Under the pieces are notes generated by a model. It was not told where the DNA came from and did no database searches. It was given only the letters and a program-made list of their open reading frames with translations. Shown here piece after piece: positions 15,427 through 62,018 of a stretch of 64,000 bases of DNA. How positions within the stretch are numbered: the first letter of the stretch is position 1; each line of letters opens with the position of its first letter. This DNA is from Anaerococcus vaginimassiliensis (GTDB lineage: Bacteria > Bacillota > Clostridia > Tissierellales > Peptoniphilaceae): NCBI RefSeq assembly GCF_900626155.1, contig NZ_LR130844.1, forward strand, positions 476,191-540,190, given 5' to 3'. A program made the translations under genes and the position numbers.

Positions 15427-17871
15427 TTAGTTTTTAGCTTCTACAAGTTCTTTGTTAGCTTGTCTTTTCTTTTTTTCCTTGCTTATATTTCTAAAGACTA
15501 GGCTATCTTTTCTAACAGATATCCTTATGGTTTCATCTCTATCGAGTTTGCCATCTAGGATATCTTCGGCTAGTCTATCGTCAATCATCTTTGTTATGTG
15601 ACGTTCGAGTGGTCTTGCCCCATATTCAGGGTCAAATCCTTCTTTTGCTAGAAGTTTTACAACCTTTTGATCATATTTTATATCAAGGTCAATCTCGTTT
15701 AGTCGAGCCTTGGTTTTTTCAAGCATTAGACCAGATATTTCCTCAATCTCCTTTTCACCTAAAGGCTTAAACATTATTACCTGATCAAGTCTATTGATAA
15801 ATTCTGGAGCGAAAGAATCTTTGACCGCCTTTTCTATAAGGTCAGCTGTTCTTTCTTCTTCTATTTTTTTCTCATCTCCAAGCTCGAAACCTATTGTTTT
15901 ACTTTGGCTTAGGCTTCTTACACCGACATTGCTGGTCATGATTATGATTGTGTTTTTAAAGTCAACTGTCCTACCTTGACCATCAGTTAGCCTTCCATCA
16001 TCTAAGATTTGAAGGAGCATGTTAAATACATCTGGGTGGGCTTTTTCTATCTCGTCAAACAATACTACAGAATAAGGATTTGTTCTTACCGCTTCTGTTA
16101 GTTGTCCTCCCTCTTCGTAGCCGACATATCCTGGAGGAGAACCAACAAGTCTTGATACGGCGAATTTTTCCATATACTCACTCATATCCATCCTTATTAG
16201 TTTATCCTCTGATCCAAACAAGTCTCTAGCCAAGGTTTTGGCAAGATAGGTCTTACCTACTCCTGTTGGTCCAACGAATATAAAGGATCCGATAGGCTTT
16301 TTAGGATCTTTTAGACCGACCCTTGCTCTTTTGATAGATCTTGCTACTGAGTCGATGGCTTCTTGTTGACCTATTACACTTAGTTTAAGATCACTATCCA
16401 AGTTAGCATATTTTTCCTTTTCATCTTCTGTTAATTTTTCAACAGGAACCTTTGACCAGCTTGCAACTATACTTGCTAGGTCATCATAGGATATGAAAAG
16501 TTCATCTTTGTTTTTATTTTCCTTATCTTTTTGTGCTTCTAGATCAAATTTAGCTTGGTTAATTTTATCCCTAAGCTCTGCTGCTCTTTCGAAGTCTTGA
16601 TCTCTTACAGCGTTTTCTTTTTCTCTAGTAAGTCTTTCCAAATTTTCTTCAAAAGAATTATCTTTGTCAGATTTTTGGAAGGCTGCAATTCTTATTTTAG
16701 AGCTTGCTTCATCTATAAGATCTATCGCCTTATCGGGAAGATACCTATCAGTGATGTATCTGTCAGATAATTCTACAGCTGCATTTATAGCCTCATCTGT
16801 GATTTTTACCCCGTGGTGGTCTTCGTACTTATCCTTAAGTCCTCTTATTATTTCTCTAGCATCTTCAAGACTTGGTTCGTCTACTTGGATTGGCTGCATG
16901 CGACGACTTAGGGCAGAATCTTTCTCCACATGTTTTCTATATTCTTCTATAGTTGTAGCTCCCATGATTTGGACGTCACCCTTGGCAAGGATTGGTTTTA
17001 GGATATTTGCTGCATCCATAGATCCTTCAGAGGCTCCAGCCCCAAGCACCATGTGAAACTCATCTATAAAGAGTATGATGTCATCCCTCTTTTCGATTTC
17101 TTCAAATAATTTCTTTAGCCTATCTTCGAAATCTCCCCTGTACTTGCTTCCTGCAATTAGGCTTGCAAGGTCTAGGCTTAGTATGGTTTTACCCTTAATA
17201 ATCTCAGGAACATTTCCTTCAACAATCCTTTGGGCAAGACCTTCTGCTATGGCAGTTTTTCCCACACCAGGTGCCCCTATCAAGATAGGATTATTTTTTC
17301 TCCTTCTCATAAGGATTTGCACCAATCTTTGGATTTCTTCATCTCTACCAATTACTGGATCTATCTTTCCACTTTTGGCAATTTCGTTTAAATCTCTGGC
17401 AAAGTTAGTTACATTTTCAGATAAACTAGAGTTAGTCATTTGCTTGTTAGGATTTTTCCCCATCAAATCATTTAGATTAGCTCTTATATTTTCCTTATCC
17501 AAACCTGACAATAAAAACATGAGGTTTGTAAAGGAGTCATCATCATCAATTATCGCCATTAGAACATCTTCTTCACGAGGAGCAGGAAGTTTCTTATTTA
17601 AAGCTATATTTCTTGCCTCTTCAAAGATTTGTCTAAGTTTTTTAGAAAACTCAGTAGCAGGCCTTTGAGAGTTGCCCCTTCCTATATTATTTATAACAAT
17701 AGATCTAAAAAGATCATAATTTGCTCCGCTTATTTTTAAAGCCTCACTTGCAAGTGAGCCTGTTTTCATAAGGGCTAGTAACAAGTGCTCGCTTCCTATA
17801 TAATCATGGTTTAGGGAATAAGACTCTCTTCTGGCTTGGGAGGTAAGTTTGTTTAGTCCTGTATTTTCCAT
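15427..17871 (-). CDS. clpC: ATP-dependent Clp protease ATPase subunit ClpC
   Basis: 814 residues, the family length. Order: N-terminal Clp_N repeats (about 1-140), first AAA+ domain with Walker A GAPGVGKT near 203, a UVR/M-domain region including NAVRDQDFERAAELRDKI, second AAA+ domain with GPTGVGKTYLAK near 545 and Walker B VVLFDEIEKAHPDVFN, then the ClpB/C D2-small domain. ClpC unfolds substrates for ClpP and works with McsA/McsB adaptor proteins. The start overlaps the mcsB stop by one base. Transcription is likely controlled by CtsR. Confidence 0.96.
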   Translation of the reverse strand: MENTGLNKLTSQARRESYSLNHDYIGSEHLLLALMKTGSLASEALKISGANYDLFRSIVINNIGRGNSQRPATEFSKKLRQIFEEARNIALNKKLPAPREEDVLMAIIDDDDSFTNLMFLLSGLDKENIRANLNDLMGKNPNKQMTNSSLSENVTNFARDLNEIAKSGKIDPVIGRDEEIQRLVQILMRRRKNNPILIGAPGVGKTAIAEGLAQRIVEGNVPEIIKGKTILSLDLASLIAGSKYRGDFEDRLKKLFEEIEKRDDIILFIDEFHMVLGAGASEGSMDAANILKPILAKGDVQIMGATTIEEYRKHVEKDSALSRRMQPIQVDEPSLEDAREIIRGLKDKYEDHHGVKITDEAINAAVELSDRYITDRYLPDKAIDLIDEASSKIRIAAFQKSDKDNSFEENLERLTREKENAVRDQDFERAAELRDKINQAKFDLEAQKDKENKNKDELFISYDDLASIVASWSKVPVEKLTEDEKEKYANLDSDLKLSVIGQQEAIDSVARSIKRARVGLKDPKKPIGSFIFVGPTGVGKTYLAKTLARDLFGSEDKLIRMDMSEYMEKFAVSRLVGSPPGYVGYEEGGQLTEAVRTNPYSVVLFDEIEKAHPDVFNMLLQILDDGRLTDGQGRTVDFKNTIIIMTSNVGVRSLSQSKTIGFELGDEKKIEEERTADLIEKAVKDSFAPEFINRLDQVIMFKPLGEKEIEEISGLMLEKTKARLNEIDLDIKYDQKVVKLLAKEGFDPEYGARPLERHITKMIDDRLAEDILDGKLDRDETIRISVRKDSLVFRNISKEKKKRQANKELVEAKN

Positions 17872-18836
17872 TATCTCTCCTTAATATATTCTCTTAGAAA
17901 GAGGTATCTATCCTCATCTCTATTTCCCTTATACTTATTCTTTGTCAAATTAAATATTAAATAATCTATTTCTTCATCTGTAAAATCAGTATCAAATCCT
18001 AAAATCCTGTATTTTTTTAATATATACAAGTTTTCTATCATAAGATCTAAGGTCTTTACAAGACCTTCCTTAAGATTTGTCAAACTAATATTTATTCTAT
18101 CTTCTATCTCTTCGCTCTTGACCTTGTTTATGTGCATATAATCTCTTCTAAATCTTCTCTCATTTCTTAGGAGAATATCTAGGCTGTGGTCAAATTTATC
18201 TACATATGATTCTATATCTTTCCTGTAATTTCCAATGTTTTTTATGAGATAAACATCATCTGAGTATGCATTGTTGTACTTCGGAGTAAATCTTGTAAGA
18301 TACATTCCTTCCCTAAGTAAACTCTGTTTTAATCCATAGTAGGCTTTTTCATCATCAACCATAGCAAACAAGAATGTTTTTACAAAAATCTCAAGACCTG
18401 AGCCTGTATTTCTCGCATCTTGAGTGTAATAGCCAAGATCTGATGAAAAAGAAAAATCTAGGATTTCATCTAACTTTTCTTCTACATCCAAAGCCTTTCT
18501 ATAAGCTTTTTTACAATCAAGGTCGAAATTTCTGACATTTATTGCCAGATGATCTCTATCATTTATTGTCAAGATGTAATCATCTTCTATAACCAGTCCA
18601 ATCTGGGCAAGTTTTTTATCAGCTTCTTCGCTTAATACAAAGGAATTTATAAGCTCATTTTTTGTATTTTCGTCAAGATCTTCCAATAAAACAAGCTTAT
18701 CAGCATATATATCTCTAAACATTTCTATGATTTTCTCGCTTGCCTCAAGTGTCATTGTCGCAGGAAAATCATATCCTTCGATGTTTCTTCTGATAGATAG
18801 GTTTGATTCTAGGATTATATTTTTGCTATAGTCCAT
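17871..18836 (-). CDS. mcsB: McsB-like protein, probable degenerate protein-arginine kinase
   Basis: 321 residues, about 40 fewer than Bacillus McsB. Position between mcsA and clpC and residual similarity (NDRDHLAIN for NEEDHIRIQ; GYYTQDARNTGSG for GYLTSCPTNVGTG) identify it. The SSRIRLARN nucleotide-binding motif is replaced by ESNLSIRRN. The catalytic Cys of CPTNxGT is absent, and the GEGSEA loop is not recognisable. A C-terminal DRYLFLREYIKER still resembles the phosphoarginine-receptor tail. It may act only as an adaptor for ClpC rather than a kinase. Overlaps neighbours by single bases on both sides. Confidence 0.8.
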   Translation of the reverse strand: MDYSKNIILESNLSIRRNIEGYDFPATMTLEASEKIIEMFRDIYADKLVLLEDLDENTKNELINSFVLSEEADKKLAQIGLVIEDDYILTINDRDHLAINVRNFDLDCKKAYRKALDVEEKLDEILDFSFSSDLGYYTQDARNTGSGLEIFVKTFLFAMVDDEKAYYGLKQSLLREGMYLTRFTPKYNNAYSDDVYLIKNIGNYRKDIESYVDKFDHSLDILLRNERRFRRDYMHINKVKSEEIEDRINISLTNLKEGLVKTLDLMIENLYILKKYRILGFDTDFTDEEIDYLIFNLTKNKYKGNRDEDRYLFLREYIKER

Positions 18837-54801: not shown

Positions 54802-55110
54802 ATGAAAACAAATAAAATTGCAGCACTATTACTAGTTGCATCATTCGCACTTGCAGGTTGTGGAAACAACGCTGACACAACAAAACCAGCAGATACATCT
54901 GCAGAAACAAAAGTAGAAGAAAAAGCAGACGACGCTAAAGCTACTACAGACGAAAAAGCTGAAGATGCTAAAGAAGATATTGATCAAAAAGCTGAAGATG
55001 CTAAAGAATCAGTAGACGAAAAAGCTGAAGATACAAAAGATTCTGTAGATCAAAAAGCTGACGATGCTAAAAACGCAGTAGAAGAAGATAAAGCTGACGA
55101 AAACAAATAA
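54802..55110 (+). CDS. Small lipoprotein with 11-residue coiled repeats
   Basis: 102 residues. Lipobox LALAGCGN (Cys20), then a tail rich in Ala, Lys, Glu and Asp with five tandem 11-mers (KADDAKATTDE, KAEDAKEDIDQ, KAEDAKESVDE, KAEDTKDSVDQ, KADDAKNAVEE). The periodicity resembles LEA/apolipoprotein amphipathic helices. It would extend as an amphipathic rod from the cell surface. Function is unknown; a protective or envelope-spacing role is possible. No Cys besides the lipid anchor. Confidence 0.85.
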   Translation: MKTNKIAALLLVASFALAGCGNNADTTKPADTSAETKVEEKADDAKATTDEKAEDAKEDIDQKAEDAKESVDEKAEDTKDSVDQKADDAKNAVEEDKADENK

Positions 55111-55123
55111 TTAAACTAAACTT

Positions 55124-55150
55124 AGAGCTGGTATATGCCAGCTCTTTTTA
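55124..55150 (+). terminator. Terminator of the 11-mer-repeat lipoprotein gene
   Basis: AGAGCTGG / CCAGCTCT stem followed by TTTTTATTT. Confidence 0.9.
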
Positions 55151-55196
55151 TTTATTAATTTTATGTTGTCTTTTTATTAATTTTCTTAATATAAAC

Positions 55197-55224
55197 TTTA
55201 CATTTCTTAAATAAGAGTTATAAT
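55197..55224 (+). promoter_or_regulatory. Promoter of the PepSY lipoprotein
   Basis: TTTACA (55197-55202), 16 bp, TATAAT (55219-55224). Confidence 0.72.
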
Positions 55225-55256
55225 ATATGTGAAATCGAAATGAAAAAGGAGATTTT

Positions 55257-55892
55257 ATGAACAAAAAATTATTAGCTGTTGCTCTTTCAGCAGGAATCGT
55301 TCTTGCAGGATGTGGCAACTCAACAGAAAACAAAACAGATGATACAGCAAGTACAGATACAAAGGTAGAAGAAAAAGTAGAAGATGCTAAAGATAGCGCC
55401 AAAGAAGTAAAAGATGACGCAAAAGACGCAAAAGATAATGCAGAAACTGCTGTAAAAACTGCAACTTCTGACATTAACGAAGTAAAAATCGACCTAGATG
55501 GAGCTATAGCTAAATTCAAAGAAACTTTCGGCGACGAAGGAATCGAAATCGAAGATATATCTCTTGAGCTTGAAAACGGAGAATATGAATACGAAATCGA
55601 CGGAAAGAAAGAAAATACTGAATACAAACTTGTTTTAGATGCAAACACAGGTGATATCAAAGAACAAAAAGAAGAGGAAGATAGCGATAACGAACCTATA
55701 GAAGCAATCGACTTTGCATCAATCATCAGCCTAGATGAAGCAATGGATAAAGCTCTAACAGGTCAAGAAGATGCAAAAGTTCTTGGATGGAGCCTATCTA
55801 CAGATGACGGTAAAACAAAATATGAATTCGATATAGATAATGGTGATGACAAAGAAGTTGACGCTCTTACAGGAGATATCCTAGCTGACTAG
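55257..55892 (+). CDS. PepSY-domain lipoprotein
   Basis: 211 residues. Lipobox IVLAGCGN (Cys19), an Asp/Lys-rich linker with imperfect 11-mers (VEDAKDSAKEV, KDDAKDAKDNA), then two PepSY-type units: about 79-133 (LDGAIAKFKETF...EYKLVLDANTGDI) and about 160-211 (LDEAMDKALTG...YEFDIDNGDDKEVDALTGDIL). PepSY domains are thought to modulate proteases or bind peptides outside the cell. The linker shares composition with the neighbouring small lipoprotein, suggesting a common origin. Confidence 0.88.
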   Translation: MNKKLLAVALSAGIVLAGCGNSTENKTDDTASTDTKVEEKVEDAKDSAKEVKDDAKDAKDNAETAVKTATSDINEVKIDLDGAIAKFKETFGDEGIEIEDISLELENGEYEYEIDGKKENTEYKLVLDANTGDIKEQKEEEDSDNEPIEAIDFASIISLDEAMDKALTGQEDAKVLGWSLSTDDGKTKYEFDIDNGDDKEVDALTGDILAD

Positions 55893-57712: not shown

Positions 57713-57791
57713 GATAGTAGGTTTATTTATAATGTAGAGGGCTATATATTTTAATAAAACTTTCTTATATCTTAATAAATTTATAAAAGCA

Positions 57792-57815
57792 AAAACCTCC
57801 CATTTGGGAGGTTTT
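57792..57815. terminator. Terminator of the fprA operon
   Basis: AAAACCTCCCA / TGGGAGGTTTT stem; on the minus strand it continues TTGC. Confidence 0.85.
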
Positions 57816-57847
57816 CTAAGTTAAACAGTATATCTATGATACTATTA

Positions 57848-59092
57848 TTATTTCTTTTGTGAAGCAGCTTTTTCTTTTTCTTCTCTACGTTTTTTCATAG
57901 AGTCTTTGATTCCTTCAACTATAGCGTCCATGTCACCTTCTTTTTGTGATTTCAGACTTGATACTATGTCTAGTCCTTCTGGAAGAACATCCATTAGTCT
58001 CATCTCTTCGTCAAGGAATTTTTCCATTTTTTCTGCTGCTTGTGGTGCCCATGTACCATTTCCGATGATTGATACAGCTCTATTTTGTAAGTTTAGAGCA
58101 GCCATATCGTTTAGGAAGTCTTTCATCTTTGGATAGATACCTAGGTTGTAGGTTACAGATGCTAAAACTAAGTTAGAGTATTTAAATGTTTCAGCTATTA
58201 ATGTAGAAACATCTGTGTTTGATACGTCTCTTAGGGATATATCTGTAATACCTGCTTCACAAAGTTTGCTTGCAAGAGCTTGAGCTGCAAATTCTGTATT
58301 ACCATACATTGATGCATATACAATTAATACACCTTCTTTTTCAGGTTCATAGGTTGCCCAGTGTACATATTTGTCGATGATATAACCAAGGTTATCTCTC
58401 CAAACTAGTCCGTGAAGTGGGCAAATATATTTTATGTCAAGTCCGCCAGCTTTTTCTAGGGCTTTTTGTACAAATGTACCGTACTTACCAACTATATTTG
58501 TGTAATATCTACGTCCTTCATCAAGATAATCTCTATCCCAATCAACTTCGTCAGCAAATAGTCTACCGTTGTTTGCGATAAATGAACCGAAAGCGTCAGC
58601 TGAGAATAAAACTTTGTCTGTGCTATCATAGCTCATTAGAACTTCTGGCCAGTGAACCATTGGAGCTTCAACAAAAGTAAATTCGTGTTTACCAAAGCTA
58701 ATTGTATCGCCTTCTTTTACTTCGATATATCTATCATCTACATGATAACCAAATTGTCTCATGAACATTACTCCCTTTTCAGAAGAGATTATCTTCATGT
58801 TTGGATATCTTTGTAGCATTAGTTCTATAGCTGAGCAGTGGTCTGGTTCCATGTGGTGAACTATCATATAGTCTAGGTCACGACCATCTAGAACTCTTGC
58901 TATGTTTACCATATATTCTCTTGTTACTGCCCAATCTATTGAGTCGACTAGTACTGTTTTTTCGTCCATTAGTAGGTATGAGTTGTAAGAAACTCCTTCA
59001 GGAATAGGAAATATATTCTCAAATAAGGCAAGTCTTCTATCGTCCCCACCTACATAATATAAATCGTCTGTTACTTTTCTAACTGTATACAT
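57848..59092 (-). CDS. fprA: FprA-family A-type flavodiiron protein
   Basis: 414 residues. A metallo-beta-lactamase-like di-iron domain with HMEPDH (His80, Glu82, Asp84, His85), a further His in MVHWPEV, Asp in SADAFGSF and His in CPLHGLVW. A C-terminal flavodoxin domain begins VYASMYGNTEFAAQ. It reduces O2 (or NO) to water using electrons from rubredoxin or a similar donor, protecting anaerobes. It lies 12 bp after the acyl-CoA dehydrogenase fusion and is co-transcribed with it. Confidence 0.94.
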   Translation of the reverse strand: MYTVRKVTDDLYYVGGDDRRLALFENIFPIPEGVSYNSYLLMDEKTVLVDSIDWAVTREYMVNIARVLDGRDLDYMIVHHMEPDHCSAIELMLQRYPNMKIISSEKGVMFMRQFGYHVDDRYIEVKEGDTISFGKHEFTFVEAPMVHWPEVLMSYDSTDKVLFSADAFGSFIANNGRLFADEVDWDRDYLDEGRRYYTNIVGKYGTFVQKALEKAGGLDIKYICPLHGLVWRDNLGYIIDKYVHWATYEPEKEGVLIVYASMYGNTEFAAQALASKLCEAGITDISLRDVSNTDVSTLIAETFKYSNLVLASVTYNLGIYPKMKDFLNDMAALNLQNRAVSIIGNGTWAPQAAEKMEKFLDEEMRLMDVLPEGLDIVSSLKSQKEGDMDAIVEGIKDSMKKRREEKEKAASQKK

Positions 59093-59104: not shown

Positions 59105-61033
59105 CTATTTTCTATCATCTGGGAATTCTACTTTTACGAATTCTTCTTTAGCTTCTCCAGAAACTGGACTTACCCATTCGTCTGGCAACTTGTCAAATGG
59201 TGTGCCTGGTTCGATTCCTTGAGTTGGATCGCCTACTTCTGGGTCATATTCGTAACCAGATCCCAAATCCACGTAAATATCTTCTTTGGGAGCCATCTTT
59301 CTTGGTTTAGATCTTTTGATTTTTTTCATAGGTGGAGCTGGTTTCTTTTCTTCTCCATTATCAAGTTCTTTGATAAGAAGTGGAAGAACTTCCATAGCAT
59401 CTCCTACGATACCGTAGTCACAGTTATTAAACATTGGAGCATTTTTGCTGTTGTTAATTGCAACGATTGTTGATGCGTCTTTCATTCCCTTTAGGTGTTG
59501 TCCTGCGCCTGATACGCCGACACCAATATATAGGTTACCCTTGAATGATTGACCACTCATACCGATGTATCTATCTAACGGAATATACTTTAATGTTTCA
59601 GCAACTGGTCTAGATGAAGAAATAGCTGCACCTGCTTGGTAAGCAAGTTCTTCTATTAGTTTCATGTTTTTCTTTTCACCTATACCACGTCCTGCAACAA
59701 CTACTCTTTGTGCTTCAGGAATTGGTGTATTTGGATCGATACCTACTGTAAAGTCATATCCGTCTTTCTTTAGTGATTGAACAAGCTTTTTAACAGCTTC
59801 TTTAGGGTCTCCTTCGTAGATTTCTTTTTTACGAACTCCTGCGATGGGACCAGCACCTTTGCCTTTACCTCCTGCTCTTTTCATTTTTGGAGCACGTCCT
59901 ACAGTGTTTGCACCAACTACAACTCTCATGATTTCGTTAGTACCTTCATAGATTTGTGTAATCTTAGCGTCTCTGAAGAATCTTTCAACATCAACACCCT
60001 TGATAAATCCAGAACCGCCGTAAACTTGTACAGCTTCTGTAGCAATCTTCATAGCAAGATCTGATGCAACTTGTTTAGCCATAGCAGCTTCTGCAGAATA
60101 TCTTTCGTGATTTTCTTTAAGTTCTGCTGCATGGTAAATCATAAGTCTTGCACCGTGTAGGTGAGTTGCCATATCAGCAAGTTTAAATGTATTTGCTTGT
60201 AAGTGAGCTATTGGAAGACCAAATTGTTCACGTTCTTTAGCATAAGCAAGAGCAGATTCATAAGCACCTTGTCCAATACCAAGAGCTTGTGAAGCTATAC
60301 CAATTCTACCACCGTCAAGTGTTGCCATAGCAATCTTAAATCCTTGACCTTCTTTACCGAGTAGGTTTTCTTTTGGAACTTTAACATTATCAAAATGAAG
60401 TTCAGCAGTAGATGATGATCTAATACCTAGTTTGTCATAGTGGTCTGAGAATGTAAATCCTTCAAAATCTTTTTCTACGATGAAGGCAGATATACCGTGT
60501 GTTCCAATACCTGGTGTAGTTACAGCAAATACAACATATGTATCAGCTTTTGGAGCGTTAGTTATAAATATCTTCTTACCATTTAAGATATAATTATCGC
60601 CATCAAGTTCAGCAGTTGTTTCTGTTCCACCTGCATCTGAACCTGCGTTTTCTTCTGTAAGTCCAAAGCCGCCTAATTTTTCACCCTTAGCAAGTGGTGT
60701 TAGGTATTTTTTCTTTTGTTCTTCTGTACCGAATGCAAATATTGGCCATGAACCAAGTGATGTATGAGCTGAGCATATTACACCAACTCCACCGTCTACT
60801 CTAGATAGTTCTTCTACAACGATTGCATAAGAAATAACATCAAGACCTTGGCCACCATATTCTTTAGGATAAGGTATTCCTAGAAAGCCCAATTCTCCCA
60901 TTTCTTTCACTATATCATCTGGGAATTCATTCTTTTGATCTAAGTCGAAAGCTATTGGTTTTACCTTTTCTTCAGCAAAAGCTCTAACTTTTTTACGTAG
61001 GGCCTCATGTTGATCTGTTGTCTTAAAAAGCAT
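59105..61033 (-). CDS. Acyl-CoA dehydrogenase / EtfA / rubredoxin-like fusion with cysteine-free rubredoxin domain
   Basis: 642 residues. Residues about 1-380 are an acyl-CoA dehydrogenase with catalytic Glu in [11 protein letters not shown]. About 410-560 resemble the FAD-binding domain of EtfA ([47 protein letters not shown]). Residues about 586-642 align with rubredoxin ([18 protein letters not shown], then [14 protein letters not shown]), but the four Cys ligands are replaced by Asp589, Ser592, Ser622 and Ser625. The fusion should move electrons from acyl-CoA or reduced ETF toward FprA, but the usual iron site is lost. Co-transcribed with fprA. Confidence 0.9.
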
Positions 61034-61066: not shown

Positions 61067-61095
61067 ATTGTAAACCGAATAAAAATTTTTGTCAA
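61067..61095 (-). promoter_or_regulatory. Promoter of the dehydrogenase-fprA operon
   Basis: TTGACA (61095-61090), 17 bp, TACAAT (61072-61067). The remaining AT-rich DNA to 61334 shows no gene. Confidence 0.8.
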
Positions 61096-61334: not shown

Positions 61335-62018
61335 ATGAAAAACAATTTTAAAAAAGTATTTGCCCTTGTTTTAGTTGCCTTAGCCCTAAGTGCTTGTTCA
61401 CAAAATAAAGAAAGTGAGGATAAGGAAGATAAGAAGGTTGAAGTAAAAATAAATAAAGATAATAAAAAAGAAACTTCTGGTAAGGATAAAAAAGATTTAG
61501 AAAACGAAGATAACGAAAGCTCCGATACCAAAGAGGAATCAAATATTTCTAACAATCCTACACAGGAAAATCCTGAGGGTGATATAAAGAATATTGAAAG
61601 TTTAGAAAATACTGAAAATAATGACAAGGATAATTCTTCCCTTGATAAAGACGGCAAGTATCTAACTTCTATTATAGCAAGTCAAAATGGTGATTTTAAT
61701 GATTTAGGATATGCTAGCACCTATGAGTTTTATGTAGATGGCGAAACTAATACTCTTATAGTAAAGGGATCTTTAAATTATAATGAAGATATAGATGACC
61801 GTGACTTTTTAGAAGGATCCACTCAAATGGATAATTCAACCTATACTTTTAAGCTAGATGAAAATTCTATTCTAAGAAGCACTGGGGGTATAAATGAGCC
61901 ACATCCTTATACGATAGAAGAGTTTAACAATATCGCAAATGATGTGAAAGACTCTGGTCTAGGACTAATTATAATCGTGGAAAATGGTGTAGTTAAAAGC
62001 GCAAGCATAGCCTCATAA
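61335..62018 (+). CDS. Lipoprotein of unknown function
   Basis: 227 residues. Lipobox LALSACSQ (Cys21), then a very polar Lys/Glu/Asn-rich linker (about 24-105), and a C-terminal globular domain of about 120 residues (YLTSIIASQNGDF, YEFYVDGETNTLIVKGSL, YTFKLDENSI, YTIEEFNNIAND, LGLIIIVENGVVKSASIAS) with beta-rich pattern. No family recognised; the fold may be a small beta-sandwich. AAAGGAGAGATAT precedes the ATG. Single-gene unit. Confidence 0.8.
   Translation: MKNNFKKVFALVLVALALSACSQNKESEDKEDKKVEVKINKDNKKETSGKDKKDLENEDNESSDTKEESNISNNPTQENPEGDIKNIESLENTENNDKDNSSLDKDGKYLTSIIASQNGDFNDLGYASTYEFYVDGETNTLIVKGSLNYNEDIDDRDFLEGSTQMDNSTYTFKLDENSILRSTGGINEPHPYTIEEFNNIANDVKDSGLGLIIIVENGVVKSASIAS

Follow-up and report, generated by a model that had tools for sequence, protein, structure and literature searches.

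The window analysed here is a stretch of 64,000 nucleotides from the genome of Anaerococcus vaginimassiliensis, and positions are counted from its first letter. On the minus strand, at 59105..61033, lies a gene for a fusion protein of 642 residues which, according to the list of open reading frames and its translation, starts with an ATG at 61033 and ends with a stop codon at 59107..59105. The protein begins with an acyl-CoA dehydrogenase (ACAD) part (residues 1-378, 59900..61033; Pfam PF02771, PF02770 and PF00441), continues with an EtfA C-terminal FAD-binding domain (residues 435-556, 59366..59731; PF00766 at 438-518) and a basic linker (residues 557-585, 59279..59365), and ends in a rubredoxin-type tail without cysteines (residues 586-637, 59123..59278), which is seen by Pfam, by alignment and in an AlphaFold2 model. 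E363 of the YEGTN motif in the ACAD part, which we take to be the catalytic base, is invariant in our alignment (A1). The original prediction had called this an ACAD/EtfA fusion; this holds for the ACAD and for the FAD domain of EtfA, but a whole EtfA is absent, only the C-terminal PF00766 domain being there.

Twelve bases past the stop codon of the fusion gene, on the same strand and with a Shine-Dalgarno-like AGGAGG, follows fprA (57848..59092), which encodes a flavodiiron protein (FDP) of 414 residues. A metallo-beta-lactamase domain, a flavodoxin domain and the diiron ligands place it among the two-domain (class A) FDPs; H80, E82, D84, H85, H147, D166 and H227, presumably the diiron-ligand positions, are conserved in all aligned rows. 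Upstream of the pair there is a sigma-70-like promoter, TTGACA-17-TACAAT (61067..61095, minus strand, 11 of 12 matches), and after fprA a terminator-like hairpin (57791..57816, minus strand). Both are consensus matches only, from a scan of the region that gave 21 promoter-like sites against 14.3 expected and three terminator-like sites against 2.3 expected, so that co-transcription with fprA, which had been predicted outright, is better described as likely.

Bystrom and Wolthers are said to have described, in 2024, a system of this kind, BOOR, in Fusobacterium nucleatum. In the available text of PMC12288474, the BCR subunit of BOOR oxidises butyryl-CoA, electrons pass to an FDP, and O2 is reduced to water; both a butyryl-CoA:O2 oxidoreductase activity and an alpha4beta4 complex are given there for F. 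nucleatum, where the two proteins are BCR FN1424 and FDP FN1423 (PMC12288474, PMC12630350 and PMC13404960, as far as their text is available). The window pair resembles BOOR in the domain order of ACAD, EtfA C-terminal part and rubredoxin, in the two-domain FDP gene adjoining on the same strand, and in the retained active-site residues of ACAD and FDP. It differs in the C-terminal domain, which matches the rubredoxin profile but has none of the four cysteines of an [Fe(SCys)4] site, and in four altered EtfA positions, 446, 472, 504 and 507. Since a fusion of ACAD, EtfA and rubredoxin beside an FDP has already been described as an oxygen-reducing pair, it is the loss of the cysteines alone that is new. 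Among the listings and passages covered by our literature searches there was no report of a cysteine-less rubredoxin domain in such a fusion; no paper joined Anaerococcus with flavodiiron, and one (PMC9160270) joined it with rubredoxin. A PDB search returned no full-length fusion structure among the best 60 of 77 matches.

The Pfam rubredoxin profile (PF00301) matches residues 593-632 with an E value of 9.8e-14 and 51.6 bits against a cut-off of 23 (56.1 bits in a genome-wide search), a likeness far beyond chance. This match and the alignment bear out the predicted rubredoxin-like tail with Asp, Ser, Ser and Ser at the ligand positions: of the four cysteines in the two CxxC-type motifs of a rubredoxin none is left, and in their places stand Asp589 (59267..59269), Ser592 (59258..59260), Ser622 (59168..59170) and Ser625 (59159..59161), all on the minus strand. 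The remainder of the domain is conserved, as had also been predicted. The aromatic core (Y587, Y594, Y596, F613, W620 and F632), the linker residues K573, R574, S575, K576, P577, R578 and K579, and most Gly/Pro turns are the same in 28/28 distinct Anaerococcus sequences; by our own position matching, this core corresponds to the aromatic cluster of rubredoxin, given as W3, Y10, Y12, F29, W36 and F48 in the available text of PMC3945938. Two positions beside the old ligands have turned hydrophobic: Leu590 (26/28 sequences) replaces Asn, Pro, Gly, Gln or Ser of the relatives, and Val624 (28/28) mostly Glu, Lys or Asp.

In the AlphaFold2 model the tail has block-mean pLDDT values of 81-84 over residues 591-630 and the same short strands as a four-Cys relative (L050), whose blocks are at 78-86. 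The input alignments of both proteins held the same 40 sequences, of which 34 have four cysteines, so that the folded tail indicates a sequence compatible with the fold and is not independent evidence. A rubredoxin lacking its cysteines still folds (PMC3945938, available text; PDB 1QCV). That protein, the engineered Pyrococcus furiosus variant PFRD-XC4, is likewise a rubredoxin fold without ligands; it is stated in PMC3945938, which cites Strop and Mayo 1999, to have all Cys replaced by Ser, unlike the sequence of PDB 1QCV, which has Thr, Ala and Thr at ligand positions 2-4. PFRD-XC4 is designed and free-standing, while the Anaerococcus tail is natural, fused and found throughout the genus.

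Among 31 Anaerococcus genomes searched, 29 carry the full-length fusion protein at 88-100% identity, and all 29 (28 distinct sequences) have Asp, Ser, Ser and Ser at the ligand positions. Outside the genus, four cysteines are present in 117/117 distinct complete homologues with a rubredoxin domain, drawn from 58 loci within the same family and 59 in other groups; one sequence truncated after two cysteines and two paralogues without a rubredoxin tail were set aside from this count. The nearest outside relatives (L036 and L050), at ~80% identity, have all four. So do 27/27 readable loci of a class-level search, in part the same genes as the 117, and both rubredoxin-bearing loci of a phylum search, one of which (L274) lies on a contig as long as that of a locus already counted (L096) and may be the same. 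The original prediction had asked whether homologues share the loss; the answer is that the other genera keep their cysteines and that the loss is common to every gene-bearing Anaerococcus genome, which makes it improbable that resequencing would restore them. An error of sequencing or assembly, or a recent decay confined to one strain, is accordingly refuted by the genus-wide pattern and has practically no probability left, the more so as different codons are used at the former ligand positions among the 29 genomes. When the tail is left out, a quick maximum-likelihood tree places the Anaerococcus proteins in a single clade (SH-aLRT 100) among four-Cys sequences, and the simplest history is thus a single loss on the branch to Anaerococcus. 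This FDP is likewise missing from the two genomes that have no BCR; the closest FDP in each is only 46-47% identical to it, like a second type described below.

Within Anaerococcus, dN/dS is 0.115 for the tail, 0.107 for the EtfA domain, 0.057 for the ACAD part, while the two linkers reach 0.161 and 0.124, as computed from the 193 of 378 sequence pairs with 5-55% synonymous difference, which are neither too close nor saturated. Such values indicate that the tail is under purifying selection. The ACAD part has about half this dN/dS, and the tails of those four-Cys groups that offered at least two usable pairs stand at 0.039 (g2, 15 pairs) and 0.081 (g36, 78 pairs), so that constraint on the Anaerococcus tail may be somewhat relaxed. 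The serines have nonetheless been kept through codon changes: Ser622 is encoded by AGY in 10 and by TCN in 18 sequences, with at least two switches of codon family on the tree, and Ser592 needs at least one. Fixation throughout the genus together with purifying selection argue against simple decay of the tail, as the original prediction had reasoned from the conserved fold.

The cysteines are not the only conserved residues that changed on this branch. Of 256 BCR positions that are near-invariant (at least 97%) outside Anaerococcus, eight are changed and fixed within it: the four ligands (C589D, C592S, C622S and C625S), T398A, S446V, A504G and I507V, of which T398A also occurs in a four-Cys sister group (g17). 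No new cysteine appears elsewhere among the fixed BCR changes. Control groups of 2-14 sequences, counted with the Anaerococcus rows left out of the comparison set, show 0 to 3 such changes, and two groups of a single sequence show 5 and 6. In the EtfA domain, residue 446 (59696..59698) is Val in 28/28 distinct Anaerococcus sequences and Ser in 117/118 other rubredoxin-bearing homologues, one four-Cys sequence having Ala; residue 472 (59618..59620) is Ser in 28/28 against Gly in 109/118 and Ser in nine; residue 504 (59522..59524) is Gly in 28/28 against Ala in 118/118; and residue 507 (59513..59515) is Val in 28/28 against Ile in 115/118 and Val in three (codons on the minus strand throughout). 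From an alignment to human ETF we take these four positions to lie close to the FAD-binding motifs GRG, SR and SGAIQH. The genome's canonical EtfA has the residues Ser, Gly, Ala and Ile at the equivalent positions.

A co-change of the FDP with the loss of the cysteines was considered and rejected: out of 120 near-invariant positions only one is altered in Anaerococcus (H307N), and one relative (g14) shares this change. At seven less conserved FDP positions (17, 91, 122, 174, 177, 206 and 402) Anaerococcus has a fixed residue that other groups rarely show. The FDP gene lies on the same strand in 160/167 loci of rubredoxin-bearing BCRs, some genomes being counted in two collections, and the other seven loci end within 853 bases of the BCR, which leaves no room for an FDP gene. 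A link of the fusion protein to the neighbouring FprA seems very likely.

For comparison, there are fusions that lack a rubredoxin tail altogether. The same genome encodes a second ACAD-EtfA fusion of this kind, of 561 residues (L002, G000:C1:1176656-1181320), divergent from a second flavodiiron gene; the two are possibly an all-flavin relative of BOOR. Many Anaerococcus genomes carry such a second fusion. Among 19 copies that were fetched (L188-L206), 15 have the second-type FDP within the stretch and on the opposite strand, some 1.5 kb away in L190, while the fetched stretches of the other four (L192 and L198-L200) hold no FDP. The FDPs of the tail-less fusions are just 43-49% identical to the window FDP. 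Two further genomes of the family have tail-less fusions (L265 and L266 in G067, L267 in G058) and, at the cut-off used, no full-length rubredoxin-bearing BCR.

The tail-less fusions differ from the window BCR in having no rubredoxin domain and resemble it in the FAD states of EtfA, with Ala or Val at 446 and mostly Gly at 504. This was compared across 27 of them, 19 with and eight without an FDP in the locus. The 19 comprise 17 Anaerococcus paralogues, several of them near-identical, and include one fragment (L206) and one locus (L137) whose FDP adjoins a four-Cys BCR; position 446 is Ala in 11, Val in six, Gly in two and Ser in none of the 19, and Gly504 is found in 15 of the 18 that are readable. 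Of the eight without an FDP, one of which (L269) starts at a contig end, five have Ala446, two Ser (L192 and L265) and one Thr, and a phylum-level sequence (L272) combines Ala446, Ser472 and Gly504, likewise with no FDP in its locus. The change at 446 does not, therefore, need an FDP next door, and the protein with Asp, Ser, Ser and Ser has the FAD-domain pattern of many fusions that have no rubredoxin at all. That the EtfA changes came by gene conversion from the tail-less paralogue is unsupported for large tracts, since the EtfA domain of L002 is 56.6% identical to that of the window protein and 58.2% to that of the four-Cys sister L050. In a test that takes kinship into account (76 chosen rows; L191, L205, L206 and L236 left out), four independent pairs were available: 446 changed in the same way in 3.9 of them on average and in the opposite way in none (p 0.125), 504 in the same way in 1.9, and 472 in the same way in 1.7 with 1.0 opposite. 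With four pairs the link between 446 and the lost iron site cannot reach significance; relatedness counted, it is suggestive.

Based on these comparisons, we suggest that the fusion protein and FprA are the BCR and FDP of BOOR as it occurs in Anaerococcus, and that on the branch to this genus the iron site was lost while core, linker and operon partner were retained. The tail, free of iron, would then serve for docking or assembly and keep the BCR attached to the FDP; we consider such a variant of BOOR reasonably probable. Electrons from butyryl-CoA would move from the FAD of the dehydrogenase to the FAD of the EtfA domain and, the fused iron site being gone, onward to the FMN of the FDP directly or by way of the cell's own free four-Cys rubredoxin, with O2 as the presumed final acceptor; the relatives probably use a different electron route. 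The direct route would make an all-flavin chain up to the diiron site, in which the tail is an iron-free clamp and the EtfA FAD has been retuned at 446, 472, 504 and 507; taken by itself, we regard this version as a tentative one, and the pairs of a tail-less fusion and an FDP may pass their electrons from FAD to FMN in the same way. The carrier route, in which the tail merely holds the complex and a takeover by free rubredoxin led to the loss of the iron site, is a sub-case whose probability is included in that of the docking reading, and we find it rather doubtful as a specific claim. Free rubredoxin is present in 31/31 Anaerococcus genomes searched, in this one as two tandem four-Cys proteins (C1:895231 and C1:895538; L005, G000:C1:895231-895681) that belong to the same family as the tail at 51-52% identity but are separate and keep their cysteines, and a match to an NROR-type C-terminal domain is likewise found in 31/31 genomes, above the cut-off in 29. 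In the sister genera g14 and g17, however, genomes with a free rubredoxin still keep the fused iron site; having one is therefore not enough to account for the loss, and the FAD-domain changes fit a changed acceptor without telling which. An expansion of free rubredoxin special to Anaerococcus was rejected, given that, by numbers of matches, 26/31 genomes show a single copy, as do the sister-genus genomes G065 and G069, and 5/31 show two.

The same free rubredoxin and NROR-type domain could instead supply the FDP from NADH, through NROR and free rubredoxin, while the BCR no longer feeds it and the tail serves only the solubility or stability of the dehydrogenase. Loss of all four ligands, an alternative supply that may exist and the somewhat weaker constraint than in g2 and g36 would be in keeping with such a relict; but the FDP has been retained next door, BCR and this FDP are missing together, and linker and core are invariant under purifying selection, so that we judge it unlikely. 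Still less probable, in our view, is the suggestion of the original prediction that the domain binds another ligand, for instance a hard metal ion at an oxygen-ligand site made of Asp589 and Ser592, Ser622 and Ser625. All that speaks for it is that the four residues are invariant in 28/28 sequences, with Ser622 retained through its codon-family switches, but this invariance would follow just as well from hydrogen bonds at a capped site; our searches, which were not aimed at oxygen-ligand sites, brought up no such site in a rubredoxin fold. If the docking reading is right, a conserved and selected redox domain that has no metal ligand in a whole genus would be an unusual natural split of docking from electron carrying. 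With a naturally cysteine-less BCR and four-Cys sisters at ~80% identity, the role of the rubredoxin step becomes directly testable. Anaerococcus species are butyrate-forming anaerobes of the human body, and the question bears on how FDPs are fed and how O2 is handled by such organisms.

Other genes of the window may be mentioned as well. Short, highly charged lipoprotein-like proteins, with a Cys lipobox and many Asp, Glu and Lys residues, are encoded two in a row at 54802..55892 (plus strand), and a similar one lies upstream of the BCR gene at 61335..62018 (plus strand). At 17871..18836 (minus strand), adjoining McsA-like and Clp-ATPase genes, there is a gene for an McsB-like protein arginine kinase whose NCBIfam score is very weak (80.4 bits against a cut-off of 385), perhaps a diverged form.
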